From Pirellula sp. (GTDB lineage Bacteria > Planctomycetota > Planctomycetia > Pirellulales > Pirellulaceae): a stretch of 64,000 nucleotides of DNA. Below the pieces are notes generated by a model, which worked only from the letters and a program-made list of their open reading frames with translations, was not told the origin of the DNA and ran no database searches. Made by a program: the position numbers and the translations under genes. Below are positions 5,303 through 48,906 of the stretch, in pieces (positions within the stretch are counted from its first letter, which is position 1; every line of letters starts with the position of its first letter). Location: assembly GCA_021300155.1 (NCBI GenBank), contig JAJTID010000093.1, forward strand, positions 30,559-94,558. Direction: 5' to 3'.

Positions 5303-5312
5303 GGTTGATCTC

Positions 5313-6023: not shown

Positions 6024-6089
6024 GCAATGGCACCTTGGTAGTAAAGGAATCTTCTTATCGACACCCGTGAATGTACCGTACGGAATCGA

Positions 6090-7376
6090 CTACGGTTGCG
6101 GGGCGCTGAAGAAAACAACGATTGCGCTCATTTCTGGTTTCAGATAAACACCTTGTTCATCCTCTGGAACTCGGACTGCAACACGTACGGGAACTGCTCC
6201 TTTGGCTCGATCCGCGATGGGCATTAATCGCGAAACTTTTCCTTTATATACCCTTTTCGGAAATGCTTCTGAACGAATTTCGCATTCTTGATCTACGAAT
6301 ACTCGAGATACATCTCTTTCTTGGATGTTTAGATCAATCTCCAAATCCGATAAATCAGCAATGTCGCATACGCTGGTCGAGCCGCTGAAAGCAACGGGAT
6401 TTACAAGATTTCCCTCTTCAGCATTCTTTTTGAGGATCGTGCCAGAGATCGGTGCACGTAGCGTGCAGTTCTCCAAACGCCAAACTGACTTTGCCAGGTT
6501 CGCTTCCGCTTGCACGACGGCAGCGCGTGCTACTTCAATTCGTTCTTTTCGAGGACCTTCCTTCATCATGTCCAACACTTGACGAAGTTTTTCTATCCGC
6601 TTACGAGTGCTCAAATAACTACTTTGCGTTTGTTCGAACTCCGCGATCGAAACGGAATTTGTCTTGAGTATTTCTTTGGTCCTCTTGAATTGAGATTCCA
6701 ATTGCAACAAGATCTCTTCCTGCTCTTGCAAGTCGGCCGTTGCTGCGGCAATCTCTTGAGGCCTTGCCCCTGTCTCTAATTCACTTAGCTCCGCTTTGTT
6801 GCGTCTCAATACGCCTTGCATCTGTTCCACATCCGCTTGGTACTCCGTTCGTTCCACCTCGGCAAGAATATCTCCCTTGGTAACGCGTCGTCCCTCCTCA
6901 ATATTCAGGCTGATGATTCGGCCGCTGACTTGAGGGCTCACCAGTACTTGATGTTTTGCAATGACATAGCCTCTCGATTCGAGCGAGATCGGATTCGGCG
7001 AACTCGATTTGGTTGAATTGGTCGCTGACTTCGATACTGTCTGAGTTGTTTTCGCGTAAGCCCGTTCGGAAGCGTCCGCAACAGCACCGGTTGGAGAGTT
7101 GGGTTTGCTCCTAGGTTTGCTGATCGCATCCGCGTTCGGTTTGGAAAAACCGAGCGAAGACATGATTTTGTCATCGCGGTAAAGCAACCAGAGTAACGCA
7201 ACACCCAAGATCAACGAAAGAATCCAAGGCAAGCGGCTTCCTGATCTTTGGTTGTCGAGGCGATCTTCCTTTGCAATTTTCAGCGAACGAACTCTCTCGG
7301 CTAACTCGCGCGAGGCAATCTCACTCTTTAGATCTTTTTCCTTGCTGGAGAGTTGTGGGATGTTTTGTGTACTCAA
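6090..7376 (-). CDS. HlyD/MacA-type periplasmic adaptor (membrane fusion protein)
   Basis: Single N-terminal TM, biotinyl-lipoyl-like VSPQVSGRIISLNIEEGRRVTKGDILAEV, coiled-coil hairpin, operon with ABC genes. Confidence 0.9.
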   Translation of the reverse strand: MSTQNIPQLSSKEKDLKSEIASRELAERVRSLKIAKEDRLDNQRSGSRLPWILSLILGVALLWLLYRDDKIMSSLGFSKPNADAISKPRSKPNSPTGAVADASERAYAKTTQTVSKSATNSTKSSSPNPISLESRGYVIAKHQVLVSPQVSGRIISLNIEEGRRVTKGDILAEVERTEYQADVEQMQGVLRRNKAELSELETGARPQEIAAATADLQEQEEILLQLESQFKRTKEILKTNSVSIAEFEQTQSSYLSTRKRIEKLRQVLDMMKEGPRKERIEVARAAVVQAEANLAKSVWRLENCTLRAPISGTILKKNAEEGNLVNPVAFSGSTSVCDIADLSDLEIDLNIQERDVSRVFVDQECEIRSEAFPKRVYKGKVSRLMPIADRAKGAVPVRVAVRVPEDEQGVYLKPEMSAIVVFFSAPQP

Positions 7377-7527
7377 CGTCTCGTCCGAATTCTCTGGTTA
7401 CGACAGCAAAACCTACAGGATCATTATTGTAGTGTAGGGCCGTGGCTGAAAGATATACGCTAGCCCACATAAATCGGATTCGTATTCGCGGATCGAACCT
7501 TGCCGGCGAAAGCATCGCCTAATTTGC

Positions 7528-8769
7528 CTATCGCAAAACAGATGCAGGAATTCCGGTTTGCGATGGGTCGCGATAGTTGTTCACGGGAGTCATGTTCCAA
7601 GAGCTCGAGGGTGTTGTGTAGTTATTGGAGGGAGTTGTGGGGCGGAAGGTAATGCCGCTTCCAGAATTGCCAGAGAACAGAGGCGGATTGGTCAACCAGT
7701 TGTTGCTTCCACTCCACGCACTCGCGCTCGCCATGGGGTTCGAGGCGACATAGGTGTTCGTGCCGATGCTTTTGGGTGAGCCGTTAAATAGCCCCCCTTG
7801 GAATATGGCGCCCGTTTGGGAAAAAAACCGAGGCATTTGAAAGGCCGGTCGAGCAGCGACAGTATTCGTGTAGGGATTCGGATAGTTGTAGCTAGCAACC
7901 CCTGCGTTCGGATAAGGATTGTTCGCAAACGGAATTGCTGGCGGTGCGTAGCTTGGAACACGATTCTGCGCGACCCAACCATTGGTGTTGTTGCCGTTGG
8001 TCGATTGCGTGTAGTTGGTGGGAATATTAAACCCGTTGGGATTATAAGCTGGCACCGAAGCTAAGTTCGGGGCTGGCGTTCCACTCGTAGCATTGTTGTT
8101 CGCGTAGTATGCAGGTGGAGCGGGCTGAACGAAGGGTTGATTGGGGTATAAGCTTATTGAACGGCTGGGGAAGTTCGGATTGGATGCGAACATCGTTCCA
8201 TTTGGGTTGATCGGTCGATCCGCGTATTTGGGTCGTGATTGTTGTTCTGTTTTGAGAACCGGAATGACCTTGCGAAACTCTTTTTCGACGTACTTTTGGT
8301 ATGTGATCGGCTGATTCACTTGCACGTTATTGGCTTGGTATTGAACCACAGGAACGTATTGCCATCGAGGTTGCGACTGGGCAAATGGATTGAGGTTCCA
8401 AGAGTTTTGAAGTTGCAGTTGGTAAGTGACGATAGGAGTGTAGTTGGTCTGTGTCGTGAGTTTGTTTTCTGTTACCCACTCCGGCACCCATTGTTTCTCG
8501 ATTACTTCTTGTTGTTGATAGGTAGCGACGGGAACTGTTTCGTAGATGATGTATCGGCCGTACTGTTGCCCCGTGGCGGGATCGTAGAATGTCGCGACCG
8601 GCTGTTGGTTAGCAATGCCAGCCATGGGGTTGGTACCAACACCGGGAGTGTTCGAGTTGCCAGCGAAAGTTGTGGGATCTTGTGCGAAGACGATTTCAGC
8701 AACGACGGTCGTGAAGAATGCCGATAGAATAGAGAGAATTGAGTACGTTACTTTTTCAAAACCTGCCAT
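7528..8769 (-). CDS. Secreted low-complexity protein (Asn/Pro/Tyr/Gln rich), unknown function
   Basis: ORF 7528-8940; start at MAGFEKVTYSILSILSAFFTTVVAEIVFA (8769) gives a plausible signal peptide; repetitive N/P/Y/Q composition after it. Confidence 0.7.
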   Translation of the reverse strand: MAGFEKVTYSILSILSAFFTTVVAEIVFAQDPTTFAGNSNTPGVGTNPMAGIANQQPVATFYDPATGQQYGRYIIYETVPVATYQQQEVIEKQWVPEWVTENKLTTQTNYTPIVTYQLQLQNSWNLNPFAQSQPRWQYVPVVQYQANNVQVNQPITYQKYVEKEFRKVIPVLKTEQQSRPKYADRPINPNGTMFASNPNFPSRSISLYPNQPFVQPAPPAYYANNNATSGTPAPNLASVPAYNPNGFNIPTNYTQSTNGNNTNGWVAQNRVPSYAPPAIPFANNPYPNAGVASYNYPNPYTNTVAARPAFQMPRFFSQTGAIFQGGLFNGSPKSIGTNTYVASNPMASASAWSGSNNWLTNPPLFSGNSGSGITFRPTTPSNNYTTPSSSWNMTPVNNYRDPSQTGIPASVLR

Positions 8770-9031
8770 GATTCCAAGCTGGCTCCTTGCCATACTCCGA
8801 TGTCCGATCACAGAAGAACCACTCTCCTTGGCTTCGGACGAGCTACTTGCGAAACTGCAAAACGCCATCCAAAACGGAGGTTTGCGTTCCAAGTTGGGTG
8901 TTACAATTTCTGAGGTAGCAACGCAAGGTCTAGTGAACAAAAGTGCAACTTGGTTCTATCCTATCGATGACGAAACGATCGATTTGTTGGCGGACGATGC
9001 AATCCCCCTTGTTAGCCTCCAAGTGAAATAG
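8768..9031 (+). CDS. Trm112-like / UPF0434-type small protein
   Basis: MIPSWLLAILRCPITEEPLSLASDELL N-terminus resembles the Trm112 family; internal ATG of ORF 8615-9031. Confidence 0.6.
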   Translation: MIPSWLLAILRCPITEEPLSLASDELLAKLQNAIQNGGLRSKLGVTISEVATQGLVNKSATWFYPIDDETIDLLADDAIPLVSLQVK

Positions 9032-9080
9032 GCTGCTGTTTGTGGGATAGGCCTCCAACGCTTCCAGCCTGTCAGAGCAT

Positions 9081-9992
9081 TCAATACCTACCCCTCGTTC
9101 CAGTTGTTGCTGGATTGAGGGGTTGATAACTATCAAGATATCCATTTTGATTGGTTGTTATGCCAAGCGAATTAGCAGTGCTACCCACTGGTACAAATCC
9201 ATTGATGTTCGTACCCATTGGATTGAAGTTGGTTGTGCTAGGCGGATAGCTTGTGTTTTGGTACGGAGACGTGTTCCCCACGCCGTACTGGCTATAGGAA
9301 CTATTTTGGCCATACGTTGGGTATTGTCCGTAAGCAACGTTCGATGGCAAATTCGCAGTGGTTGGAAACCCGTTCGAGTACCCTCGATTCTGTTGTGAGT
9401 AAGCAGAGGAAGAGGTACTTGGCCAATTGTATAAAGTCGATTGCGAGTTGTATGAAGAAGTCATGGTTGCGGGTGGGAGCGTGGTTGTCGGCGCGGCCGT
9501 GTTGGTTGGATATCCATTGTTCCAATATCCACTCGGACTGGGTTGCGAGTTTTGGATGCCGGTGTTCACAGGGTAGCCATATTGCGAACCACTCGTATTC
9601 TGTGCCCCGTAGTTGTATGACGGCTGCGCTGGGTATTGCTGATTTGCGAAATACTGCTGGCTGGCCAATTGTTGTGGATTGGCGTAATACGATGCGTTCG
9701 CTGGATTGCGAGTTTGAGACTGGGTGTAGGCATAGGGATCGATGGAAGCAGCAGTGCGCTGGCCAGCCATCGAATCATACGAAGTGGTCGGGAATGCACC
9801 TGAGTTGACATTGGGGCGCAACAATTGGCTAGCGTACTGTGGTGGAAACTGCTGCTGGATAACGGCGGTTCCCTTGCTCTCGAAAACGCTCGTAAGGATA
9901 CTTGGATTCCAGCCGATAATTCCAAGAAGAATGAAGCCGAGTTCTAGCCAGTAGAACTTAGAATTTTTCTTTCGGCTGCTTGTAAAAACCAT
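9081..9992 (-). CDS. Gln/Tyr/Ser/Asn-rich low-complexity membrane-anchored or secreted protein
   Basis: N-terminal hydrophobic segment FYWLELGFILLGIIGW then ~250 aa of QYSNYGP-rich sequence. Confidence 0.6.
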   Translation of the reverse strand: MVFTSSRKKNSKFYWLELGFILLGIIGWNPSILTSVFESKGTAVIQQQFPPQYASQLLRPNVNSGAFPTTSYDSMAGQRTAASIDPYAYTQSQTRNPANASYYANPQQLASQQYFANQQYPAQPSYNYGAQNTSGSQYGYPVNTGIQNSQPSPSGYWNNGYPTNTAAPTTTLPPATMTSSYNSQSTLYNWPSTSSSAYSQQNRGYSNGFPTTANLPSNVAYGQYPTYGQNSSYSQYGVGNTSPYQNTSYPPSTTNFNPMGTNINGFVPVGSTANSLGITTNQNGYLDSYQPLNPATTGTRGRY

Positions 9993-10277: not shown

Positions 10278-12854
10278 GTGGACAATAAACGATTTTTTGC
10301 CTATCTCCTTCTAGGGCTATCGATTTTTTTGCTGTTCAACAGTATGCAACGTCAGCAGCAGGAGGCGAAACGCCGGTCGGACGAGCAATCGGAAGTTGCG
10401 AGAAAAGCCAAAGAGAAACGCGAAGAGCAGCTCAAGGAGATTCGAGCCAAAGCCGAGCAAGCGGCCGAGTTTGTTCCTCGGGTCGAACCGCCGCGCTCGT
10501 TCCATTTTTTGGGAAGCATGAACCCAGAGGATGGTTACTCCCTGCTGGTTTGCCTTGACAATCGCGGGGCCGGCATTAATCGAATTGAGATTATCGAGCG
10601 CGACAAATCAGGAAGACTCAAGTATCGCTGGTTGCAAGAAAAAGAACGTCGAGGCTACGCGGGCTATCTCGCTCTCGACACCCAACTGGATTCATTCACG
10701 ATTCGATCCGTCCCAGTTGGAAGTCCTGCCGCTGCGGCCAAGTGTTCGCAAGACAAAACACTCGTCGGGCTACAACCGGGTGACCGAATCGTCGGCTGGG
10801 ATAATCTTGAAGGGGAACCCTCGAAGTACCGTTGGGAACAGTGGATTGATACTTGGAGAGTCGGCAAAACCGTTCAACTGACCGTCGATCGTAATGGCCA
10901 AAAGCTCGGATTCGACATTATGCTAGGCGAAAAGCCTTTAGATGTGGTTCGCGCAGAAGATGATTTTCGATTTGAACAAGTTCAAGGGAACGATCCCGTC
11001 TCATCATGTCTAACAACCATTGCTAGCATCAACGGAAAAGAGATCGAAGATGGTGAGGCCGCGATATTGGGCCTTGAATCGACGCTGACCGGCAATTGGG
11101 ATGTCAAGACGATTGACGTTGATTATGGCATGGGTATCGAGTTCTCGATGCCGCTGCAATCAAATTTGAAGTTGATCGGAGTGGATGCGGATATCGAGTT
11201 AGTAAAGCAGTATCGGCTTCATCGAGTCAATGCTGAAGCAAAGCCAGAAAGCAAAGACAAATGGCAATACCATATCGACTTAACAACCACCATCCGCAAC
11301 AGGGATGGACGGGACCATAAGATTGCCGTCCGACAAGAAGGTTTGAATGGGATTTCGCTGGAAGGCTGGTGGTACCCTACGAAAATCTCTCCGTACTTTT
11401 TTAGTGCGGCGGGAGCTCGAGACATTATTGTCGGAGATGGAGCGGTTTCTCATGCCCTGACAACGACTCGTACTGTCGTTTCCCATGGAATCACGGAAAC
11501 AGCCAACCCTGAATTGGAACTCTTTGGTCCTGCAAACACGGATGCGAAACGAACACTGAACTACATCGGACTTGATACCCAAGCGTTCACGGCCGCACTG
11601 TTGCCCTCTGCCGATGTTTCAGACTCGATGAAGTTACTCCATCGTGGCAAAGCTCGAGTGTTAAACTCCGTCTATCGCGATGCATCCAAATTACCAAGCT
11701 ACAAACAACAAGCGGCTAACATTGGATTTTGGATTGATTCGGACGAATGGACTTTGGGTGCAAACTCAGAAAAAAAATTCGGCTACACAGTGTTCGCGGG
11801 ACCGAAAGATCCGCAATTGTTGGCCGCCTATAAGCTTGATGAAGCACTCGAATACGGCTGGCATATCTTCGGTTTCTTTGCAAAACGATTGGGATGGATC
11901 CTTCATGGATTCCATTCTCTCGTCGGCAATTTTGGTATCGCCATCATGTTGCTGACCGTGCTAGTGCGGTCATGTATGTTCCCCGTCAGTCGCAAAATGG
12001 CGTTGAACGCTCAGAAGATGCAATCGGTTCAACCCCACACCGCGAAGCTGCGAGAAGCCTTTAAAGAAGATCCTCGCAAGATGATGGCAGCTCAGCAGTT
12101 GCTCATGAAGAAAGCGGGCGTCAATCAATTTGCAGGCTGTTTGCCCGCGTTGATTCAACTGCCGATTGTGATCGGTTTGTACCGTTGTGTTTCCGTCGAT
12201 GTCGGTCTTCGCCAACAAGCATTGATACCTGGCTGGGACTGGTGTTCCAATCTAGCGGGGCCGGACATGCTGGTCGAATGGCATAGTTGGATGCCTGACT
12301 TTATTGCAGGCCGAGGAACCGGTTACTTTGGACCCTACTTCAATATTTTGCCAATTATCACGATTACATTATTCATCATCCAACAAAAAGTATTGATGCC
12401 GAAAGCGACGGATGAGCAAACGGCCATCGCACAAAAGATGATGATGTTCATGACAGTGGCGATGGGGGTATTGTTTTTCCGTGTTCCTGCAGGTCTCTGT
12501 ATCTACTTCATCACATCGTCCACATGGTCGTTGGTGGAACGGTTCTTGATCAAGCGGTATACGCCCAAGGGGACATCAATTGATCTTCCGGAAAACACGG
12601 CCCACGAGATCATTCAGACTGTCAATAAGCTTGGGACCGGAGCAGTCGCGCAACAGCGAAGTGCGACCACCAATAGTGATAAGCCGAAAGAAAAAATGAC
12701 CAAGCCGCCAGAGACGCTGGCTGAACTGTTTCCAAAGTGGTTTGGAAAAAAAGAGTCGACGAATGGTTCTACGAGCTCTACTCCTGGCAAATCGAAGAGC
12801 AACTCTGGGCAGAAACCGCCTGAGCGTAAAGGAAGACGCCCAAAGCCGAAGTAA
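10278..12854 (+). CDS. yidC: Membrane protein insertase YidC/Oxa1
   Basis: N-terminal [20 protein letters not shown], large periplasmic domain, C-terminal 60KD-IMP domain ([35 protein letters not shown]); basic tail. Confidence 0.95.
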   Translation: [858 protein letters not shown]

Positions 12855-13309
12855 TCAGGCATCGGTGCTTTCACCGTGCGTTTAGCCGAGTAGTGGGTAT
12901 TTTTCCTAACTCACTCGTAGAGGCGCGTTCTCTTCGGCTAGCACGTAAAGACTTGATGTCTTCATCCTAACCTAAAGCCTATGGGCTCGTTGCTTGAGTC
13001 GTTTCACCGTCAGACGCAGTCGAGCGAGTGGCTTTTTGAGGCACTCCACGAACCAAGCGAAGACAGCCGAATTCAAGTCTCTCGCATCCAATCGGAATTG
13101 TGCCTAAGCCGTTCGTGGATGTATTCAAAGCTTAACGCCGAGTCGGGGAGTCGCGAAGGAGCTCAACTCAGCGACTATGCGTGTAGTCTCTTTGCGTTAC
13201 GAAGTCATAGGTTGTCTGTCTACAGCGTGATCGCAAGATATGCATTTCAAACCAGAACCGTCGCATGACGCTGCGTAATGCAAGCTCGAATTTACTAGGC
13301 TGGGATTTT

Positions 13310-13800
13310 ATGAAAACCAAAGAAAAAGAAGTTGTGTGTGGGGGTGTCGATGTCTCCAACGATACTTTGGCTGTTTACTTTCCCGATACCGGTTTGGAGG
13401 CTAAGACCGATCCTATCGATACCCAATTGATTTCCAAGTTTGCATGTCGTCAAGGTACAAGCTATTCCGATGGCCTCCGATCACGAGCAAAAACAATCGG
13501 CTCTAGTAACCAGACGTTCCCAGTTGCTAGAGCTAATCAATCCGGAGAACAATCGTCTAAAGCAGTCTTGGGATAATGACGTCAAAAAGAGCATTCACGA
13601 AGTACATGAATACTTGAAAAAACAAACTGTCGACGTGGGATGGTGGCCAATGCAAGGAAGCTATCATTACCACCGCTCCGCACCGACAAGCGGCCGATAA
13701 TAGCGACTCTGCCCCCGGAAGCCGTTAGTGAACTTGACATCATAATGCTACGACGCAGCTTGCGTGCGTCGGGCACGAGTGTCTCAGTTGCAAAAGCGTC
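13310..13800 (+). pseudogene. IS110-family transposase remnant (frameshifted, internally deleted)
   Basis: GVDVSNDTLAVYFPDTG and AKTDPIDTQLISKFA in one frame, then ALVTRRSQLLELINPENNRLKQSWDNDVKKSIHEVHEYL in another: order matches the IS110 DEDD domain and following helical region. No full ORF. Confidence 0.72.
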
Positions 13801-13843
13801 TTCGTAACCGCACTTATTAGGATTATCCGCACGGACTATACCT

Positions 13844-14515
13844 TTAGCTCGACACCAGATGATCTGGCAAATGATGGAAATGATTCCAGAAATCTAGTTG
13901 CCACTTGCCATTGGATTTGACGAGGCAGGAAATCGATGTGTTGATGGGTTCGACAACATGCGAGTCCAGATCCTCAATCCCTAGAAACGATTCGAGCAAT
14001 CGGACTTTAAAGTCTGCATGAATCATCATGGCAACACGATGTGTGGCGTGCCGAGGCTCGCTATCGAACCACTTGCGTACTTCGTGGGCTCGAAGCCTCG
14101 CTTGGGAAGCGGTTTCATACTCAGTGAGAGGATTCCAGCCATGCTCTGTAATGCGGGAATCCAGTTCCCAGCCAGAGTAATGCGTTTCCAACTCCCGTCG
14201 AGTCATCCCCGGTTCAGCAAATCGTTTTCCCGTTTCGAATCCACGATGGCAACCACCTTGTTCGAATAGATCCTGTCGAATGATCGGCGTTAAACCCAAT
14301 GAGGAGGCGCTCGGTTTCAACGTCTGCAACGACCTTAAGAATGGGCTGCAGTACAAAAGCGTCGGTTCGAATCGATGAATGAAGCTGGCAAGCAGTTTGG
14401 CTTGCTCTACCCCCAATTCTGTGATGCCTGGATCAGGAACTCGTTCGGAGTCAGGTTTCGCATTGTTGGCTGACTGAGCATGCCGGATGAGAAACAGTTT
14501 CCAATCTGCCGACAT
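13844..14515 (-). CDS. Histidine phosphatase family protein (phosphoglycerate mutase-like)
   Basis: LFLIRHAQSANN catalytic RHG-like motif, second MIHADFKVRLLESFLG. Confidence 0.82.
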   Translation of the reverse strand: MSADWKLFLIRHAQSANNAKPDSERVPDPGITELGVEQAKLLASFIHRFEPTLLYCSPFLRSLQTLKPSASSLGLTPIIRQDLFEQGGCHRGFETGKRFAEPGMTRRELETHYSGWELDSRITEHGWNPLTEYETASQARLRAHEVRKWFDSEPRHATHRVAMMIHADFKVRLLESFLGIEDLDSHVVEPINTSISCLVKSNGKWQLDFWNHFHHLPDHLVSS

Positions 14516-14518
14516 GGG

Positions 14519-15751
14519 TTATCCCGCTTTACGGATTTGGTTGGGCAATTGCAAAAACTCTTCGTCGATCGGCAAGGTACCTTCGTTGCCTGAAGACTGC
14601 TTTTTCAGGAGTTCTTTGGCCGTAACGTAACTGGCTCCCGTGCGCGCATATTGGCTTGCCAACTCCAGTAGTTTACGCCGCTGCGCTAATCGAAAGGAAT
14701 CATCACCGATCAAACGACTCATTTCTCTGGTCAACTTTGCAATAGACGCATTGGCTGTTCGCGAATTTGCTTTGCCGTAAGAGATCGCTTCTGGAAGCAC
14801 TATCTCTTCCGCGATAAGGTTCGGTAGCGAAATGCTCTTCACTCGCACTAACAACTTGGCGAGAAAATAGGTCATTTGATTGACATGATACATTACCGCT
14901 GCGGGTTTTCCTCTCGCCATCATTTCGAGCGATACAGATCCACTCTTCATCAGAGCACAATCACCGATCTCGATGATCTCGCTCGTCTTTCCCGCGAAGA
15001 TATGGATGGGCAGTTTCGAATCGCTAGCGGTCAACAAACTTCTGCACCACAGTGCATGCGAATCTTTTAGCGCTGCCACCAAGAACTGTACATTCGGATG
15101 CATGTGCGCTAAACGTCGAATGACCTCGAGTTGGAGCGGCCAATTATGTTTGACCTCGTGGTCCCGGGAACCCGGCAACACGGCAACTTGAATCCGATTG
15201 TTTTGTCTCCAATGCTGGATGAACCGCGTATCCATCGGTTGACCCGCGATGCTATCAAAGAACGGGTGCCCAACATACGTCGCAGGAACATGATTCTGTT
15301 CAAACCATGTTGTCTCAAAGGGCAGATTACAGAATACATGATCTACATTGCGTCTCATCTTCGCGACGCGCCAACCTCCCCATGCCCATAACTGTGGTGG
15401 CAAGTAGTAATAGACCGGCAACCCGTATTTTTTGGCCCGTTTCGCAATGTGCCAATTGAAGCCGGGGAAATCGACCAAGATGACTGCGTCGACATCGCCA
15501 CGTGCAAAGGACTGCTCAGCCATCTTGGCAATTCTGAAAAATTCTCGCAGCTTTGGAAACACTTCTGCGAATCCCATAACGGCCATGCTGGTAAGGTCAA
15601 AATCCAGATCCAAACCCGCTTGGATCATTTTGGATCCACCGAATCCTCGAAAGGAAGACGATGGCGAAAGATTTCGCAACGAACGAATCAAATTCGATGC
15701 ATGAAGATCGCCGCTTGGCTCACCGACGGAGAAAAAGAACCGTTGTCCCAT
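14519..15751 (-). CDS. lpxB: Lipid-A-disaccharide synthase
   Basis: FFFSVGEPSGDLHASNLIRSL, FVDFPGFNWHIAKRAKKYGLPVYYYLPPQLWAWGGWRV, LPGSRDHEV. Start at MGQRFFFSVG; ORF extends to 15850. Confidence 0.95.
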   Translation of the reverse strand: MGQRFFFSVGEPSGDLHASNLIRSLRNLSPSSSFRGFGGSKMIQAGLDLDFDLTSMAVMGFAEVFPKLREFFRIAKMAEQSFARGDVDAVILVDFPGFNWHIAKRAKKYGLPVYYYLPPQLWAWGGWRVAKMRRNVDHVFCNLPFETTWFEQNHVPATYVGHPFFDSIAGQPMDTRFIQHWRQNNRIQVAVLPGSRDHEVKHNWPLQLEVIRRLAHMHPNVQFLVAALKDSHALWCRSLLTASDSKLPIHIFAGKTSEIIEIGDCALMKSGSVSLEMMARGKPAAVMYHVNQMTYFLAKLLVRVKSISLPNLIAEEIVLPEAISYGKANSRTANASIAKLTREMSRLIGDDSFRLAQRRKLLELASQYARTGASYVTAKELLKKQSSGNEGTLPIDEEFLQLPNQIRKAG

Positions 15752-15939
15752 GAACACTTCGTCGTGGTTAGGTGCCACAAACGCTTCCAGAGTGCTGAAT
15801 TGACTACAGTCTACTGTTTGATGGCAGTCACTGTTCTCGTTCTGATTCATCGGTCATTAGGTCGTTAGAGTTTGGAAAGAACCTAACGGTATACGGGAAA
15901 CTGCGCAATTGAGGCAAGAGTAAGAAACTCATTTACCGA

Positions 15940-16773
15940 TTAGTGGAGATTTTCCGTAATGAACGATCGTAATTTGCTAGCAAAGACCTCAGGCTGTTCC
16001 ATCGGAGTAAGATGAGCGGAATTTGCAATCTCCGCGTACCGACTGCCCGGGATCGCTAGCTGCATTCGCTCCAAGACACTCGGCGGGGTGATGAAATCGT
16101 CGGTCCCAGCAACACATAAGGTGGGGAACCGCCAATCCTCCATTGTTTCGAAAAAGCTAGGGCGTTTGCACATGGTCAGTTGCGCCCAAGCGACGGTGGA
16201 AGGATGGGTCGAAAGCAGCATCTGACGAACGCATGTCACCACGTTTGGGTTATTCTCATGGGTAAACTTGCAAACCAGTTTCTGCAACATCTCGCCGGCC
16301 GCTCGCTCCGTTCCTAGAGTTAGCGCATTGGAGGCCATTTTCAATCGACTCTGAACACCCGCTTCGTCGTCAGCATTCGCTCGAGTGTTCGACAGAACCA
16401 GCTGTGAAACTAGGTCAGGGAAGTCGTTCGCAAACTGCATCGCTACATAGCCCCCCATCGACAGGCCGCACACAACGACGGGTTGACGGACCGCTTTTGC
16501 GGCCAGCAGGTCGCGGCAATCTCTCGCCAAGTCTCCCAGTGAAAAGGACTTGCGCTCTTCCGGAGCGTTGCCGAAACCTCGCAGGTTGGGTGCCAGGCAC
16601 AGGAAATCGTCGGCGAGCAGCTCGATGGTGGTTTCCCACATACTGGCGTTGAGCGGGAAGCCGTGCAGGAATAAAATTGGATTCCCGGTACCTGCGATTT
16701 TCAGGGGGATTTGACGTTTTCCTAGATCGACCGTCACTTGGTCTTGGAACGGAAATCCGTGATTAGAAGACAT
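15940..16773 (-). CDS. Alpha/beta hydrolase fold protein
   Basis: ILFLHGFPLNASMW oxyanion region, CGLSMGGYVAM nucleophile elbow, C-terminal H in NSAHLTPMEQPE. Confidence 0.92.
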   Translation of the reverse strand: MSSNHGFPFQDQVTVDLGKRQIPLKIAGTGNPILFLHGFPLNASMWETTIELLADDFLCLAPNLRGFGNAPEERKSFSLGDLARDCRDLLAAKAVRQPVVVCGLSMGGYVAMQFANDFPDLVSQLVLSNTRANADDEAGVQSRLKMASNALTLGTERAAGEMLQKLVCKFTHENNPNVVTCVRQMLLSTHPSTVAWAQLTMCKRPSFFETMEDWRFPTLCVAGTDDFITPPSVLERMQLAIPGSRYAEIANSAHLTPMEQPEVFASKLRSFITENLH

Positions 16774-41099: not shown

Positions 41100-42917
41100 C
41101 TATTGACCTCCACGCGGTCCAGGAGGTCCGCCCGCACCAGGACCGCCACCTGGTCCTCCAGCCCCGCTACCTCGGTTTGCCATTCGCTTTTTCATATTGG
41201 CTGTGAGCTCAGCCCTATCGAGCGAGCCATCTTTGTTCGAATCGGATTCGTCGAAAAACTTTTTCATGTTTTCGTCAGCAGAGGCCTCATCCTTGCTGAT
41301 CTTTCCATCCGAGTTGGTGTCCACTCGGCCCATGATCATTCCGACAATTGCTTCCGGATTCATGCCACCACCTCCTCCGGATGCTCCTCCTTCAGGGCGA
41401 CCGGAATCCTTTCCAACAGGTCGAGGTTCCGAGGCGATCTTTGCCAATTTATCGCGATCATCAACCTCCTCGATTTCAGGAATTTCCATCTTATTGAGAT
41501 GTTTGCGTGGATTCAGCACCACCATATCGCCAACATCGACACCCGATTCGGCTGTCACGAATTTCTCGTTCGTCCCACCGATTTTGATTTCTTTCGTTTC
41601 AAAGTCATCCCCCTTCTTCACCAATACGAAATGATGCCTCTTGGTTTCATAAACTGCGAGCACGGGGACCTGAATCGCATCTGGCAATTGCTCAACGAAT
41701 ATCCGTACTTCGGCAGTCATGCCCGTACGAATCGTCTCTGGCGGATCAATAATCTGAACGAACGCCGCGTATTCCTTGACGTTAGAACCGAACCAATTTC
41801 CTGGCTCTGCATACTTATTCACCTTCACCACTCGGCCGAGCAGTTCGTTTTCAACAGCGCCAACTCGAATCTTGACAGGCATGCCTTCGCGAATGAGCGT
41901 TACGCGAGACTCGTTGATCTTGGCTTTGACCTGCATCCGACTTGGATCGGGCAACAGAAAAATCGTTTGTTGCTCTCGAACAACTGCCCCGGGCTCAACA
42001 ACGAAATCCGCACCCCCGCGACTCCCGAACTTATTTGCATAAACGACTTGGCCGTCTGCTGGAGCGAGTACCGTACAAGCCTTGATCTGAGATTGAATCT
42101 CTTCCAGCTTGTCTTTTTCCTCTGCTAGCGTGTTTAGATCTGAGTCGAGTTTTGCCTTTGCCGTGGCAATGTCGCTATCCAACTGAACTAACATCTTTGC
42201 CTTGGTCAGTTGGTCAAGAACTTTTAGCCGCCCCTCCGCGGAATCTAAGGTACTACGAGCGTTTTCAACCGAGAACTGTTCAGCTTCGATCTGCAGAGGC
42301 TTGTAAGTGCCTTTGGCTGCCAATCGCTCAGCACTTTGCAATGCTAACTCTGCCTTGCGCACGTTTTGTTGAGCAACCGAGATTTCGCTAATAATCGCTT
42401 TGCGCTCGGTCAAGTACGTGCCCTCAAGATACTCCTGCCTCGCGATCTCAGCCTTGCTAACCGTCGCCTGACTTGAAATGACGGTCGATTCTGCTGCACT
42501 TACGACGATGCGCTGTGTTTTTGCATCTTGCTCTAGGGCCGAAGAATCAAGCTGACAAAGTTTGTCTCCTTTTTTAACAATCGTTCCTTCCGCAACCACG
42601 TTCAAAATAGGTGTGCCGCTGCTACCTCGTCCCTTTACCTCGCATTTGACTTCGTTGTTGCTGCTACTTTCAATCTCCCCTTGTTCAAGAACCACATGAT
42701 CAAAAGGAGCCTGTGCAACCTCCTCCAACATCGGTTTTCCGTCGCTAGTCGCATAAATGCCTGTCGATTTCGACTGGTACCAATAATACCCAACTCCCCC
42801 AACGGCAGCTGCAGCGATCAGTACTGCGACTAGACTTTTCGCGGATCCACGACGATGATTGCCAGCTCGTTTTAATCGATTGCCTGACTGCGAAACACTT
42901 CGATATCGTTTTTTCAT
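41100..42917 (-). CDS. HlyD/MacA-type adaptor with C-terminal EF-hand pair
   Basis: Single TM, long coiled-coil, adaptor barrel; C-terminus has two canonical EF-hand loops DTNSDGKISKDE and DSNKDGSLDRAE and a Gly/Pro-rich tail. Confidence 0.92.
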   Translation of the reverse strand: MKKRYRSVSQSGNRLKRAGNHRRGSAKSLVAVLIAAAAVGGVGYYWYQSKSTGIYATSDGKPMLEEVAQAPFDHVVLEQGEIESSSNNEVKCEVKGRGSSGTPILNVVAEGTIVKKGDKLCQLDSSALEQDAKTQRIVVSAAESTVISSQATVSKAEIARQEYLEGTYLTERKAIISEISVAQQNVRKAELALQSAERLAAKGTYKPLQIEAEQFSVENARSTLDSAEGRLKVLDQLTKAKMLVQLDSDIATAKAKLDSDLNTLAEEKDKLEEIQSQIKACTVLAPADGQVVYANKFGSRGGADFVVEPGAVVREQQTIFLLPDPSRMQVKAKINESRVTLIREGMPVKIRVGAVENELLGRVVKVNKYAEPGNWFGSNVKEYAAFVQIIDPPETIRTGMTAEVRIFVEQLPDAIQVPVLAVYETKRHHFVLVKKGDDFETKEIKIGGTNEKFVTAESGVDVGDMVVLNPRKHLNKMEIPEIEEVDDRDKLAKIASEPRPVGKDSGRPEGGASGGGGGMNPEAIVGMIMGRVDTNSDGKISKDEASADENMKKFFDESDSNKDGSLDRAELTANMKKRMANRGSGAGGPGGGPGAGGPPGPRGGQ

Positions 42918-43120: not shown

Positions 43121-44914
43121 TCAAGACTTGAGATTTACTAGGAATTCCGCATGCTCGAGCATTGGGTCGTCGTATTGCAACCGAATAACCCCCTGATTCT
43201 TGAGTTCTTCGACCAGTTTATGTTCCTCGGCTAGCGTTATTCTGGCAATCCTACGGACGCGAGCCCCTCTCTGCTGCCAACTGAACACCAGCATGCAATA
43301 CACCAAAAGAGGAAAAAAGGACAACATGAGGCTCGTGCCGATGACCGAACCGCTAAACGCAAAGCCGTCGGCGGATTCTACTTGGCTCGCTAACGCCTGC
43401 CAACTCGCTTGGAAATACAGCCGATAGATCGCAACAATCGGACCGGCCAACATCCCCCAAAACAACAATGTCCCGAACAGCCCCAAACATTGAAGCCATA
43501 TTCGAAGTCCCAGCTCTCGGTCAACACAATTCTCAAAGGTAGCGCGCGCACGCGATTGAAGCTCTTCAACCCCCGTGAGACGTATTTGCATTTGTTGTTC
43601 GCGATCGTTGCTGACAAAATTCTCACCCCGAAGACGCGCGATGCTTCGATAAAACGAGGCTTGCACCGGGGCGAGCCGATCTTCGATCTGCCGATGAAGC
43701 CTGTCGCGTATCCCCTCATTCAAATCCCATTGCATGGATCGTGTCTGCTGCAGATTTTTTGCCCAAGCTACGAACGTACCAAAGATGGATGGCACACTTC
43801 CGGTAAAGGACATGATCAATCGATCCCACGCGCCACTCGTAAACCCCAACACGGAAAGGACTGTTCGATAAGGAAACCATATCATCGCGGTGTTGTTCAG
43901 CAATTGTGCTCGAAGCCTTGCACGCACTGCCGCTTGCAAGACCTCGGTGGATCCCAATACGGCATCGATGGTCTGTGTCGGGAGAGAATCTGCTTCTTGA
44001 TGCATCTGACGAACAGCCTTGGCAAGGTTTGGTAATTGCGATTCTAACAACTGCTCAATGCGCGTTCGCAATCGAAGACTGGCTGCCGTCAATCGGTTTG
44101 TTCGGGTTGCTGCAATACTATCGAGTGATTCGTTTCGAAGCCTCGCTTGAATTGCAGCACGGAATCGAAGGGAGCTTTGCTCTTCGTCACCAGTCGCTTC
44201 AAAGTCCTCGATCAAAATAGCGGGAAGAAAACGTGTGCCCGGCGCGACGCTACGCAATGCGGCGTCCAACGTTGCTAAATCCGACGTGAGCGACGAACTG
44301 TTCAATACGATCTCGGACGAACCGCTCATGCTGCCACACTCTTTGCGAGGGACACAGGTAATTACCGGAATACAGATGGAACCTTCGGTATGCAATGCAA
44401 TATTCCCGACCACAGCGCTGCGCAATTGATCGCGACGAATCACGAGCAATTTGATCGGTGATAGTGTCAACGCTTCCTTCGCGATCTTCGCAGCTTGGGA
44501 ATCGTCGTCAGTGGTCCCTGGTGTATCGAGCAATATATACGGATGACTCAAATTCAACATACCTTCCGCTCGGCAAGGTATGTAGATCTCTCGAGCAGAA
44601 TCTATCCCCTCGGGAGATCGCGAACCCAACCAATAGAGTTGGGTCGTTGCTTCCTGCGACAAAACTCCGCTCGGCAAGAGCGCTGCAATAGTCTTGTCTA
44701 ACACGAACTGTCGCGCAATCCACGTTTTGCCTTGCCCCTTCGCTCCAACGATTGCAATGCTAGGCAATGCAACTCCACGCGCGTCCATAATCGATGCCGA
44801 CTGCGCTCGATATTGCTCTACCCATTCGTGAATTTGCAAGGAGGCTGGCTGGGAACCGAGCAGCGACTTGGTTGCCGCTTCAATACGATTTGATAACACT
44901 TCGTAAGATTGCAT
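43121..44914 (-). CDS. Membrane-associated P-loop GTPase-like protein (pair member B)
   Basis: G1/Walker A AIVGAKGQGKTWIA, G3-like ILLDTPGTTDD, two C-terminal TM segments. Confidence 0.78.
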   Translation of the reverse strand: MQSYEVLSNRIEAATKSLLGSQPASLQIHEWVEQYRAQSASIMDARGVALPSIAIVGAKGQGKTWIARQFVLDKTIAALLPSGVLSQEATTQLYWLGSRSPEGIDSAREIYIPCRAEGMLNLSHPYILLDTPGTTDDDSQAAKIAKEALTLSPIKLLVIRRDQLRSAVVGNIALHTEGSICIPVITCVPRKECGSMSGSSEIVLNSSSLTSDLATLDAALRSVAPGTRFLPAILIEDFEATGDEEQSSLRFRAAIQARLRNESLDSIAATRTNRLTAASLRLRTRIEQLLESQLPNLAKAVRQMHQEADSLPTQTIDAVLGSTEVLQAAVRARLRAQLLNNTAMIWFPYRTVLSVLGFTSGAWDRLIMSFTGSVPSIFGTFVAWAKNLQQTRSMQWDLNEGIRDRLHRQIEDRLAPVQASFYRSIARLRGENFVSNDREQQMQIRLTGVEELQSRARATFENCVDRELGLRIWLQCLGLFGTLLFWGMLAGPIVAIYRLYFQASWQALASQVESADGFAFSGSVIGTSLMLSFFPLLVYCMLVFSWQQRGARVRRIARITLAEEHKLVEELKNQGVIRLQYDDPMLEHAEFLVNLKS

Positions 44915-44920
44915 GAATGC

Positions 44921-47176
44921 TTATATGTTCAAGGATTGAAGAAATGTCTCTAAACGCAACAACTGTGGCTTTCGAACTTGCATTCGGCGCGGAACCATCG
45001 TTGGCGATGATGCATCGTCCGTTGCTCTTGCTGGTGCCTTTATCGAAAGGCTGCTGATCGCAATACTTCGTTGCTCGCTTCCCAAGGATACGATGGCAGG
45101 AAGATCTTTCGAGGGTCGCTCTAAATCCAGAGAATCGCACAATGTTGCAACCAAATCACCGAGTTGTTGCCATGCTGCCTCCGATTCTGCAATCTTCGGC
45201 ATGCGATCGGGACTCAACAATGCAATCCCCAGTCCTGCCACACCAGCCCCGAGCAACTCTTTGAGTGATGCAAAAACCAACACGCTGGAACCACCAAAAT
45301 CGAGCGGCAACAACATCACCGCAACGAGCGGTGCAAACAATACAGCAGCAGGAGCCAAACCCGTCACGAGTCGCTTGGACCATGGCATTTGCTCCCACAT
45401 CTTCGATGTGACCGCGTCCAATTCCGAGACGTCCAATTCGATGATACTCTCGTCTTGAAATCGATCGATTGACCGTTGCACAATGTTGACTAGCTTCGTA
45501 CGAACGCCTTCATTGGAGTTCGCATACGGATTGTCCAACCCCCAATGCCCAGCCCTGTCAAATCGTTGAATAGAATCGACTAGCGAATCCGCTGTCACGA
45601 CTTTGGCTGCATCTCCCGAACTCCAGCGCGACCGTATGAATTGCACTAAGCCCTCGGTCTTACCCGAAAGCCAAGCGGGCAGCTTGAACCAGTGGCCAAT
45701 CTGGCTGACTCGCGCTTTTCCATACTCCGCCATCCGCGTTGTCCAGCGACCTGGCATTGCCCACCACGGTGCGGTTCGCTCCAACGATTGAGAAACTTGC
45801 TCAATGATCTTTCGCGAAGCCTGCATCCGCACTTTCGTCGGTGCGTTCGGTTCTAACGAAAACTGCAAACACGCATTCACCAACGAGTCACGCATTCCCT
45901 TTCGTTGATGGAGATTCGTCTCACATTGCCTCTTCAACATGTTCAATGCCGAGAACAATTCGCTCTGCAATCTCGAGACATGCGATCGGATCGAGTCCGC
46001 TAAAAGACTTTCGAAGTCTAACTGCATACCGATGTTTAGCAACCAATCGTCCTTGGGTATGATCGCTGGCGGCTGAACTGGAGGGGAACGATCAATACGA
46101 AAGAACAATGGCAATGGATCCTTACCGCAAATGTTCCATGTCGGGTCGGGTACTGGCAATCGATCTCGCATGTGCGGCCCATCGAATCCATATGCCATGT
46201 AACAACGGTCCAGCGATTCTCTCCCATAAAGAGTGACCAATTCCTGTTGGATCGTCTCGCATTCATATCGTCGCGGTACTCGATTCACAGCAGCGATCTG
46301 TTTCGTATGCGGCATTCGTTCGCGAAGCAATCTCATGAGCTGACTTACTTTTTGGTCATGCATCGCATTCGCTGGGAGCACAATCACAAACGATGAGCAA
46401 ATCGGAGCAGCACGTACCAAAAAATCTAATCGAGCTTGCGCTATCGAATCGGCTGCAGATGCTAATCGATCACCTTGCAACCCCTGGTTTCCATTCGATA
46501 AAAATCCAGTTTGCACATCAGGACAATCCATCAATGCAATTCCCCATCGATCCAAACCGCTATCAAATGCTACCAACGGGATCTCGATCGTAGATGTAGA
46601 TATCGTGCTCTGCCCTGAACGCTGATCTCGAGAGGAATCGATGCGAGGAACGGTATCGTTGTATTGGTTGGCTGCTTCGACAGGATCGTCCGACAACCAC
46701 TCAGGTGGATGGCCGAATATCGACGCTAACCGCAAAGCAATGTTGTCCCAAAGCACAGAATTGCTTTTCCACGCATCTGGCAACCAAAGTACAAATCGAT
46801 GTGTGCCTTGATCGTTCGACGCACCCACCAAGACTCGACGACGACCTTCATCCGACAAGTAGGTGGAAACGAGCGAACTCTTCCCTGCATTCAGCAACCC
46901 AAGAATAGCAACAATTGGTGCCGACGGAGCCGAACAACAGAGTCGGCAATCTTCCAACAGCGAATGGATCGAACTCCAAGCCCTAGACCCTAACTCGCCG
47001 AGCGAATGCAACGCTTCCCGTCCTGAAACCATCGTTTCCCGACGAGAAACCTTGGTGTTTTCCGAACCAAATTGGTACGCCACCAGCGAATATTCGGTCG
47101 ATTCCTTCTCCAAACAATCTTGCAATTGCGCCAATTGCTCTAATAGTCGCGTTTCCTTATTGAGGGTTGGCTCCAC
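44921..47176 (-). CDS. Membrane-associated P-loop GTPase-like protein (pair member A)
   Basis: G1 AILGLLNAGKSSLVSTYL, G3-like LMDCPDVQTG, two C-terminal TM segments; 6 bp upstream of next gene. Confidence 0.8.
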   Translation of the reverse strand: MEPTLNKETRLLEQLAQLQDCLEKESTEYSLVAYQFGSENTKVSRRETMVSGREALHSLGELGSRAWSSIHSLLEDCRLCCSAPSAPIVAILGLLNAGKSSLVSTYLSDEGRRRVLVGASNDQGTHRFVLWLPDAWKSNSVLWDNIALRLASIFGHPPEWLSDDPVEAANQYNDTVPRIDSSRDQRSGQSTISTSTIEIPLVAFDSGLDRWGIALMDCPDVQTGFLSNGNQGLQGDRLASAADSIAQARLDFLVRAAPICSSFVIVLPANAMHDQKVSQLMRLLRERMPHTKQIAAVNRVPRRYECETIQQELVTLYGRESLDRCYMAYGFDGPHMRDRLPVPDPTWNICGKDPLPLFFRIDRSPPVQPPAIIPKDDWLLNIGMQLDFESLLADSIRSHVSRLQSELFSALNMLKRQCETNLHQRKGMRDSLVNACLQFSLEPNAPTKVRMQASRKIIEQVSQSLERTAPWWAMPGRWTTRMAEYGKARVSQIGHWFKLPAWLSGKTEGLVQFIRSRWSSGDAAKVVTADSLVDSIQRFDRAGHWGLDNPYANSNEGVRTKLVNIVQRSIDRFQDESIIELDVSELDAVTSKMWEQMPWSKRLVTGLAPAAVLFAPLVAVMLLPLDFGGSSVLVFASLKELLGAGVAGLGIALLSPDRMPKIAESEAAWQQLGDLVATLCDSLDLERPSKDLPAIVSLGSEQRSIAISSLSIKAPARATDDASSPTMVPRRMQVRKPQLLRLETFLQSLNI

Positions 47177-47251: not shown

Positions 47252-47779
47252 GTGAAAACGCATATGCAACAACACCGCACGATTTCAGCCAAACAGCTCA
47301 CATTCTTGATGCTTGGGTTAATATTAGGTCCTGTTGCCTGCGGTCTGCTCTTGTTTTGGAATACTGCCCCACTTCCCGAGCCCCAGCTTCCTGCTTTAGT
47401 TCGCTTCGATACGACCTGGATTGAGAAAAAAGATGAAGAACGCCGCCTTGTTCCGTGCATCATGATCAAGAATGATTCGAATCGCGATTGGGGCAAACTT
47501 TCAATCGGACTCAATGAACAATTCTACAGCACAGGAAACATGCGTCTCGGCGCAAACGAAGAAGTCGCGATTCCTCTCGAAACCTTCATCGCTCGCAATG
47601 GTAGTGTTCGGTTTCCAGTCGGCACCCGACCGATTTCCTTGGTGACAATTTTCGCTCAAATGGCATCGGGGGCTCGCGGTGTTGTGGAAATCCAAATCGA
47701 AGATGACACCAGCAAAACGTGGCGCACGCCTAAATCCACACCTGCTTCGGAGGCTAACGATTTAATAGATTTGCCGTAG
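47252..47779 (+). CDS. Single-pass membrane/secreted hypothetical protein
   Basis: 175-aa ORF, hydrophobic LTFLMLGLILGPVACGLLLFW, then beta-rich region; divergent from the GTPase pair. Confidence 0.65.
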   Translation: MKTHMQQHRTISAKQLTFLMLGLILGPVACGLLLFWNTAPLPEPQLPALVRFDTTWIEKKDEERRLVPCIMIKNDSNRDWGKLSIGLNEQFYSTGNMRLGANEEVAIPLETFIARNGSVRFPVGTRPISLVTIFAQMASGARGVVEIQIEDDTSKTWRTPKSTPASEANDLIDLP

Positions 47780-47980: not shown

Positions 47981-48034
47981 CGACTCACCAGCGATTATCG
48001 ACTCACTGGCGATCACCGACTCACCGGCGGTGCC
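47981..48034. repeat. 18-bp direct tandem repeat, three units, across a gene end
   Basis: CGACTCACCAGCGATTAT / CGACTCACTGGCGATCAC / CGACTCACCGGCGGTGCC. Confidence 0.8.
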
Positions 48035-48906
48035 AGAACGGCCGATGACTTTCCTGTTGGCAATTCGCGAGGTGCAAGCTCCCGACCAATCACTTCAAAT
48101 CGATTGCGTCCCTCAAAGTGCTCGAATCGGGGCAATAACTCCGACAAACTCTCGTCGATCGATCCGAAAACGCGAGTGACTCGGCCTTCAAAATAATGCG
48201 ATGCTACCGCAGCTGGTATTGCGACGATAAGACCTGCAAGTGTAGTGACCAAGGCTTCATAAATGCCGACCGCCAAAAAATCTGCTCGATTCTGGCCTGC
48301 CTGGAGTTGGGTGGTATCGTGAAATGCTCGTATCAACCCCCATACCGTCCCTAGAAGTCCCATCAATGGTGCAATACCTGCAGCCAAATTGAGCCATCGA
48401 ACGTTGCTGTACGCTCGATCCGCTTCGCGTTGCAACGAATCAGCAATGCTGGCCTTCACTTCCGGAATCGGACGACCAATCGTGAGTAACATTGACCTCA
48501 CAACATTCGCGGCCGCCGAGGGATGCTCAAGGCAACTTTGATAGACAATTCGCGGATCAGCATCGAGCTGCTTTGAAAACTGCTGAATCGATTTGCGAAA
48601 CCGACCAGGGAACAACTTCCCTGCCCGCAGCCCAATGCCTCGATCGATGATAAAGGTCAAAACCAATAGGCTAACGATTCCGATCGGAATCATGAAGATG
48701 CCGCCTCGCTCCAACAAAGATAATACATCCATCCCATCCTTGGAGCTAACATTGTTCACCCCGGACGAAGCACGATTGGCCGACGCCTCAACTTCTAAGG
48801 CGGCAATCTCTTTCTCGGAAACCTGCGAATAGACCATCGGGGGAAATGCCAGCCCGATGCCTATCCAAACCAAGCACAAAAAAGGAAATGCGTTCGACTG
48901 TCTCAT
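48013..48906 (-). CDS. MotA/TolQ/ExbB proton channel family protein
   Basis: LAAGIAPLMGLLGTVWGLIRAFHDT and GIYEALVTTLAGLIVAIPAAVASHYF signature; N-terminal signal peptide. Confidence 0.92.
   Translation of the reverse strand: MRQSNAFPFLCLVWIGIGLAFPPMVYSQVSEKEIAALEVEASANRASSGVNNVSSKDGMDVLSLLERGGIFMIPIGIVSLLVLTFIIDRGIGLRAGKLFPGRFRKSIQQFSKQLDADPRIVYQSCLEHPSAAANVVRSMLLTIGRPIPEVKASIADSLQREADRAYSNVRWLNLAAGIAPLMGLLGTVWGLIRAFHDTTQLQAGQNRADFLAVGIYEALVTTLAGLIVAIPAAVASHYFEGRVTRVFGSIDESLSELLPRFEHFEGRNRFEVIGRELAPRELPTGKSSAVLAPPVSR

Follow-up and report, generated by a model that had tools for sequence, protein, structure and literature searches.

The window analysed here is a 64,000-nucleotide stretch of a Pirellula sp. 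contig (JAJTID010000093.1, positions 30,559 to 94,558). Two minus-strand genes separated by 6 bp encode the proteins termed here A and B, with ORFs, strand, coordinates and spacing as given in the initial annotation. The sequences of A and B are strongly unlike each other. The features of the locus, numbered by position in the window, are as follows.

43121..44914, minus strand: gene for protein A, ORF of 597 aa, with predicted N-terminal helices, G domain, helical stalk and C-terminal hydrophobic hairpin
44723..44746, minus strand: A P-loop GAKGQGKT (G1), residues 57-64; G57, G60, G62 and K63 invariant in 26 orthologues
44507..44527, minus strand: A G3-like motif DTPGTTD, residues 130-136; D130, P132, G133 and D136 invariant
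43427..43483, minus strand: A hydrophobic segment 1 (by hydropathy), residues 478-496; 26/26 orthologues
43289..43345, minus strand: A hydrophobic segment 2 (by hydropathy), residues 524-542; 26/26 orthologues
44921..47176, minus strand: gene for protein B, ORF of 751 aa, GTG start, with predicted G domain, helical stalk and C-terminal hydrophobic hairpin
46874..46900, minus strand: B P-loop GLLNAGKSS (G1), residues 93-101; G93, L95, N96, G98, K99 and S101 invariant
46793..46807, minus strand: B switch-I candidate GTHRF (G2), residues 124-128; GT(H)RF near-invariant out to Verrucomicrobiota
46517..46528, minus strand: B G3-like DCPD (within DCPDVQT), residues 217-220; C218, P219 and D220 invariant, D217 >90%
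46271..46285, minus strand: B degenerate G4 candidate NRVPR, residues 298-302; N298 invariant, no Asp at the NKxD position
45302..45358, minus strand: B hydrophobic segment 1, residues 607-625; strong, hydropathy 2.33
45212..45286, minus strand: B weaker hydrophobic segment 2, residues ~631-655; passes the hydropathy threshold in some orthologues, helix pattern in the model
47252..47779, plus strand: small protein of 175 aa whose N-terminus carries a hydrophobic segment, transcribed divergently from B; a genus-level companion of B

Both A and B are genuine genes. Measured against the nearest relative, dN/dS is 0.09 for A and 0.11 for B, and this purifying selection puts the reality of the genes far beyond chance; each is found in 25 of 26 genomes of the same genus. 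The GTG at 47176 is plausible, though short of proven, as the start of B, since upstream of it the frame stays open for only four codons.

The P-loop and G3-like motif originally recognised in each protein are kept in 24-25 orthologues of A and B, and as far out as Verrucomicrobiota. In A they are strictly conserved with the exception of the homologue in one genome, G753, which is missing the P-loop altogether; the B protein of G753 retains it. The reported want of a clean NKxD also holds across orthologues, G4 being degenerate in both proteins: A orthologues show [IV][TN]x[VI]P or [VI]NxxR..D at that place, and B has an invariant Asn in the context N-[RKLM]-[VI]-[PR], without the Asp. The two C-terminal hydrophobic segments are seen in every A orthologue, and in B the first is strong and the second weaker, so that a membrane-binding tip in the form of a transmembrane hairpin is predicted in both. 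The role of core nucleotide-using subunit probably falls to B, judging by its G1-G3 motifs, which are the most constant, and by the one lineage in which B has a P-loop and A does not.

A V-P-R-[RK] stretch common to the two proteins had been taken as a sign that they are diverged paralogues, an argument that we reject. A orthologues read VPL, VPQ or VR at this point, so that the likeness to the NRVPR[RK] of B is a local coincidence. Profile-profile comparison of A with B yields a weak colinear match in the G domain (probability 14%, E 0.0019).

At the sequence level neither protein falls into a well-characterised family. Both stay below every Pfam and NCBIfam cut-off, and the NCBIfam scan gave nothing relevant; direct phmmer searches of PDB sequences with A and B gave no match, and profile searches of the same sequences gave matches at the level of the P-loop only. 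DUF3482/DUF2868 and YcjX/YcjF are absent among the Pfam-A families listed at E<=1 for the window proteins and their orthologues (25 of 26 families in one of the orthologue scans). Dynamin_N (PF00350) is likewise not listed for A or B of the window, its gathering score not being reached. Among orthologues it is listed for 10 of 25 in the case of B (best 6e-5) and for 2 of 24 in that of A (best 0.009). Since Der and an Era-like GTPase of the window genome match it too, Dynamin_N is unspecific when taken alone and carries less weight as specific evidence. Among the PADLOC profiles, LeoA is matched by 15 of 22 B orthologues (best 8e-5) and LeoBC by 9 of 26 A orthologues (best 1.6e-6), in three verrucomicrobial A proteins colinearly over stalk and hairpin, not the G domain. 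These matches are partial and weak, falling short of most of the protein, and do not make the pair a LeoABC system.

One alternative is that A and B are GTPases of the Era/HSR1 type (TRAFAC), attached to the membrane, whose helical C-terminal domains are unrelated to those of dynamins; they would act as a paired signalling or assembly switch and not remodel membranes. MMR_HSR1 is the best curated-library match for several family members, albeit below cut-off, the P-loop region of B is closest in sequence to Der and HflX chains, and the Era/HSR1-type GTPase of the same genome that matches Dynamin_N is also a membrane protein. Era-type GTPases, however, retain the NKxD that is missing in both A and B, and the structural comparisons lead elsewhere. 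Models were built from shallow orthologue alignments (26 rows for A, 22 for B) and have pLDDT values of 78.7 for A and 73.4 for B; the predicted order of elements is two N-terminal helices, G domain, long helices, hairpin and return helix. In Foldseek searches the best match of A is BDLP (2j69, E=1.4e-8), with the Campylobacter DLP pair (E 1.4e-6 to 8.5e-6), IniA, mitofusin and LeoA also matched; for B, Fzo1 is top (2.6e-6) and BDLP third (1.0e-5), with DRP1 and IniA also matched. All PDB matches at E<=1e-3, 38 for A and 14 for B, belong to the dynamin superfamily, although, with low TM-scores (0.2-0.3 by query length) and shallow alignments behind the models, the assignment of a dynamin-type fold beyond the G domain is a moderate one. 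The superfamily leads over long structural alignments, and for A other TRAFAC GTPases are weaker by orders of magnitude, the first non-dynamin GTPase appearing at 1e-3 as against 1.4e-8 for BDLP. We therefore consider the Era/HSR1-type alternative unlikely and favour a dynamin-like assignment, with the degenerate G4 of A and B as the reason for preferring 'dynamin-like' to canonical dynamin. Dynamin family proteins bend, pinch and fuse membranes.

A dynamin-like fold would be compatible with another view of the nucleotide, one that opposes only a GTP-driven step: A and B might bind ATP, or use nucleotide only structurally, as EHD-like ATPases or pseudo-GTPases, with A non-catalytic. The lack of NKxD in both proteins is in keeping with this, as are the GxxGQGK[ST] P-loop of A, for which AAA_22 is the best-scoring family, the G753 pair with its single P-loop in B, and the presence of EHD ATPases among the fold matches. 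Set against it are the strict retention of P-loop and G3 motif in A outside G753 and the invariance of the Asn in the B G4; the idea strikes us as a minority one, to be held somewhat more readily than the Era/HSR1-type one.

The pairing is conserved in relatives. Among 199 Pirellulaceae genomes, 90 have both genes, 107 have neither and just two, both drafts, have a single gene (one with A, one with B): co-occurrence is near-exclusive. The genes are adjacent in the order B then A in 68 of the 90, plus G753 (ORFs 5 bp apart), making ~69/90, and linkage has, by a count of marked branches, been lost at least five times, both genes being retained on each occasion. The same B-A pair is present in metagenome-assembled genomes of a few Verrucomicrobiota. 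A and B distances are correlated (r=0.95) but, as both also follow species divergence, this figure is unspecific for interaction. Planctomycetes have invaginated membranes and divide by budding without FtsZ. A part for the pair in planctomycete endomembranes, as originally suggested, would be conjectural; a distribution that takes in about half of the Pirellulaceae sampled and a few Verrucomicrobiota counts against a general role in the planctomycete cell plan.

The neighbouring genes suggest additional partners. The divergent membrane-protein gene at 47252 is real, its family lying directly upstream of B at 17 loci across the genus Pirellula, including the B-only loci L165-L167; its product has no match in a Pfam search. 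Frequent outside this genus are a dCache receptor Ser/Thr kinase gene upstream of B (13 loci) and a TolQ/ExbB-like (MotA/TolQ/ExbB-family) gene downstream of A (17 loci), each including some loci at which A and B are apart: when the pair splits, the kinase remains with B and the ExbB-like protein with A. In the window genome no dCache kinase is linked to the pair, one partial match lying elsewhere in the genome, and the ExbB orthologue (C108, 59% identity) is on another contig, unlinked to the pair. The MotA/ExbB gene at 48013-48906, beside B, is a 30% paralogue and was rejected as the A-linked protein. Other neighbours, such as pantothenate kinase, Obg-type GTPase, ROK kinase, cation efflux and citrate synthase genes, are lineage-local and unshared.

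Together with the remote LeoA and LeoBC matches and a patchy occurrence (17 of 68 genera), the MotA/ExbB linkage at many loci raises the question of whether A and B form an anti-phage or stress island resembling LeoABC or Zorya, with the ExbB-like neighbour in the ZorA part. This appears very improbable. The pair is single copy in nearly every carrier and core in the genus Pirellula, A and B diverge in parallel, and no match was found in a phage collection queried with A of the window or in a plasmid collection queried with a verrucomicrobial A. Like Zorya ZorAB and the TolQ-ExbB energizers, A is accompanied by a MotA/TolQ/ExbB-family protein, but no ZorB-like or ExbD-like partner, nuclease or effector occurs among the neighbour families scanned, and a GTPase-like pair replaces the helicase or nuclease.

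The resemblance to bacterial dynamin-like pairs originally suggested is supported by structure searches, two-segment hairpins and near-exclusive co-occurrence, and A and B are best read as a new, divergent bacterial dynamin-like pair with predicted permanent membrane anchorage. Our literature search found no dynamin-like protein described for planctomycetes. Known bacterial examples mostly come as operon pairs, that of Campylobacter jejuni assembling as a 2:2 tetramer (PMC6104087). Cj-DLP1/Cj-DLP2 (5OWV/5OXF; PMC6104087) are likewise encoded by unequal, adjoining dynamin-like genes and rank with the best fold matches of A. They have no detectable sequence similarity to A and B, which differ from them in each having a predicted C-terminal membrane hairpin and a degenerate G4, and in being unlinked in several lineages with both genes kept. 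In the two-protein, dynamin-like LeoA/LeoBC set of enterotoxigenic E. coli (4AUR), to which B and A respectively show their weak profile matches, the partners are proposed to cooperate; unlike A, LeoBC is split in two, LeoC having an N-terminal anchor, and LeoA, unlike B, is reported to be soluble and periplasmic. The part of that report drawn on here (PMC4159319) describes no kinase or ExbB link of the kind seen in many Pirellulaceae. Mitofusin/Fzo1 (5YEW, 9KFD), top fold match for B and high for A, has the G domain, helical bundle and transmembrane hairpin near the C-terminus that are predicted in A and B, which differ in being bacterial, in having unrelated-looking sequences instead of being isoforms, and in their degenerate G4. 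Finally, BDLP1 of Nostoc punctiforme (2J69) attaches to membranes reversibly via a paddle (PMC6104087), in contrast to the permanent hairpin predicted here.

It seems likely, then, that A and B belong to the dynamin superfamily as divergent members and form one hetero-oligomeric, permanently membrane-anchored machine. Each subunit would carry its N-terminal G domain atop a long helical stalk and be anchored by the hydrophobic hairpin in the style of mitofusin/Fzo1. Nucleotide binding by the P-loop and switch motifs, with a degenerate G4 that makes GTP specificity and even hydrolysis presumptive, may drive pairing of the A and B G domains, and stretches of cytoplasmic membrane would thereby be brought together, curved or repaired. 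In many Pirellulaceae the pair would be extended by the periplasm-sensing kinase with B and the TolQ/ExbB-like subunit with A, linkages suggesting that an extracellular signal may control its activity and that this activity may be coupled to the energetics of the envelope. That the kinase acts on B and the proton-channel subunit cooperates with A, giving a signal-gated remodelling machine, is a tentative and rather doubtful extension. If true, it would bring bacterial kinase signalling together with dynamin mechanics and energization by the proton-motive force in a single module, whose trans-acting halves, kinase-B and A-ExbB, survive cluster breakage. Bacterial dynamin-like proteins are poorly understood. 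A pair that is strictly co-inherited and permanently anchored, with links to both a receptor kinase and a TolQ/ExbB-like protein, would provide a testable handle on membrane shaping or repair in planctomycetes, and would offer a bacterial parallel to mitofusin-type heteromers.

An ORF check confirmed the two minus-strand genes that the initial annotation had read as a pair of membrane GTPases, separated by 6 bp:

43121-44914, minus strand: gene A, ORF of 597 aa, ATG start
44921-47176, minus strand: gene B, ORF of 751 aa, GTG start

Comparison with the nearest relative (94% identity for A, 92% for B) gives dN/dS values of 0.09 (A) and 0.11 (B), showing that both encode functional proteins. The P-loop, G3-like motif and C-terminal hydrophobic hairpin originally ascribed to each are retained in orthologues down to around 28% identity for A and 22% for B, although the second hydrophobic segment is weak in the window's B. 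Neither protein has a canonical G4 motif, the aspartate being lost in both, so that specificity for GTP is not implied; they may use ATP, as EHD proteins do. The V-P-R-[RK] stretch, previously taken as a sign of paralogy, varies in A orthologues (VPL, VPQ or VR) and therefore provides no evidence of it. Profile-profile comparison of A with B does yield a colinear G-domain alignment (165 columns, probability 14%, E 0.0019), compatible with distant common ancestry but short of proof. Outside the G domain, the most constant part of A is residues 346-376 (about 43787-43879; WFPYRT...GAWDRL...GSxPS), maintained from Planctomycetota to Verrucomicrobiota; it is modelled with partly low confidence and is perhaps a membrane or partner contact.

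No Pfam or NCBIfam model reaches its cut-off with A or B. Sub-threshold matches to MMR_HSR1 recur in orthologues of both, and to AAA_22 in those of A. Dynamin_N is matched below threshold in 10 of 25 B orthologues (best 6e-5) and two of 24 A orthologues but, since in the window genome it also matches Der and an Era-like GTPase, such a match alone is nonspecific. The PADLOC profiles for LeoA and LeoBC, both dynamin-like, weakly match 15 of 22 B and nine of 26 A orthologues (best 8e-5 and 1.6e-6, respectively); for three A proteins from Verrucomicrobiota, LeoBC aligns colinearly with the stalk and hairpin (residues about 340-495) and not with the G domain. A membrane GTPase of the window genome (L207, G000:C156, 544-2208; about 554-580 aa) exceeds the cut-off of Dynamin_N (E 7e-16) yet retains LTHID at G4; it is Era-like or dynamin-like, and distinct from A and B.

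AlphaFold2 models built from orthologue alignments (mean pLDDT 78.7 for A, 73.4 for B) were compared with the PDB using Foldseek. At E<=1e-3 all matches are dynamin-superfamily proteins: BDLP (1.4e-8), the Campylobacter DLP pair, IniA, Fzo1, mitofusin, LeoA, SynDLP and EHD for A, and Fzo1 (2.6e-6), BDLP (1.0e-5), DRP1, IniA and EHD for B. Other GTPases (Der/RbgA complex, EF-2, EngB) appear for A only from about 1e-3. The predicted order of elements – N-terminal helices, G domain, long helices, hydrophobic hairpin, return helix – is like that of mitofusin and Fzo1. TM-scores are 0.2-0.3, so assignment of the A and B trunks to the dynamin type is only moderate; low values may arise with hinged proteins modelled from shallow alignments.

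A and B are an obligate pair in Pirellulaceae. Their proposed paired occurrence is borne out in 199 genomes of the family, 90 having both and 107 neither; the only single-member genomes are drafts, G899 with A (completeness 86%) and G910 with B (85%). One more B match, a weak one in G855 (E 9.6e-4, P-loop only), was treated as chance. Of 26 relatives in genus Pirellula (GTDB), 25 carry A and 25 carry B, the exceptions being draft genomes. Counted by genus, 17 of 68 have the pair and none a single member. The Fisher p-value for co-occurrence (4e-55) is only descriptive, because the genomes share kinship. Profile matches are adjacent, B first, in 68 of the 90 genomes, or 69 with G753, whose ORFs are 5 bp apart. 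Elsewhere the two are separated by 10-13 kb (G032, G801, G829), 86 kb (G805) or 5.5 Mb (G814), or lie on different contigs. Mapped onto the tree of A, the split state requires six changes, at least five of them forced by well-supported branches, and both genes were retained at every unlinking. The family is rare phylum-wide (3/392 Planctomycetota genomes), and the single instance among 289 Verrucomicrobiota genomes is the seed itself; even so, Rubritalea and Verrucomicrobiales MAGs contain B-A pairs.

Outside genus Pirellula, 13 loci have a same-strand Ser/Thr kinase gene immediately upstream of B, and a MotA/TolQ/ExbB protein (Pfam about 1e-27) is encoded directly downstream of A at 17 loci, frequently with a 4-base overlap. 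The N-terminal sensor region is homologous in 12 of the 13 kinases; of two tested, one passes the dCache_1 cut-off (L170 yes, L188 no). Where the pair is split, B keeps the kinase as its neighbour (L169, L173, L185, L188) and A the ExbB-like gene (L168, L172, L187). Within the genus, the divergent gene noticed at 47252 proves to be the constant neighbour (175 aa, 47252-47779), adjoining B even without A (L165-L167). The window genome has its ExbB orthologue on another contig (G000:C108:70687, 59%) and a single, partial kinase-sensor match away from A/B, so the extended kinase-B/A-ExbB module is one observed in relatives, not in this window. That orthologue (L205, 6649-7521) overlaps on its 5' side a 368-aa gene without a family assignment; no ExbD-like gene was noticed beside it. 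The MotA/TolQ/ExbB-family gene upstream of B (48013-48906, minus strand) is a paralogue (30%), rejected as the A-linked orthologue. The gene at 41100-42917 (minus strand) encodes an HlyD-type membrane-fusion protein that carries EF-hand motifs at its C-terminus; after it come an export-type ATPase and a permease, forming a MacAB-like cluster.

Bacterial DLPs are mostly operon pairs, and that of Campylobacter is a 2:2 tetramer able to tether liposomes (PMC6104087). For LeoA, joint action with LeoBC has been proposed (PMC4159319). A and B share with these systems their two-gene logic and probable fold. They differ in that each partner has a predicted permanent hairpin anchor and a degenerate G4, pairwise similarity is undetectable, the genes have repeatedly become unlinked with both kept and, in relatives, there are kinase and ExbB associations. 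Lacking both a canonical G4 and a Pfam match above cut-off, they are placed as a variant among paired bacterial DLPs; no description of planctomycete dynamin-like proteins was found in the literature searched.

In G753 the A homologue lacks any P-loop and B retains GELNAGKSS. The pair there is duplicated in tandem (L189, G753:C2:5000-24000; ORFs 5310-9154 and 12165-16009), with a 6855-bp offset and a longest exact run of 4343 bases, and could be a recent duplication or an assembly error. The arrangement fits a catalytic B and a structural A. Motifs, selection, co-inheritance, linkage and fold likeness are what the analysis shows for A and B; as a mechanism, we infer that they would form a hetero-oligomer that tethers, bends or mends membrane, is anchored there through the hairpins and uses nucleotide mainly through B.
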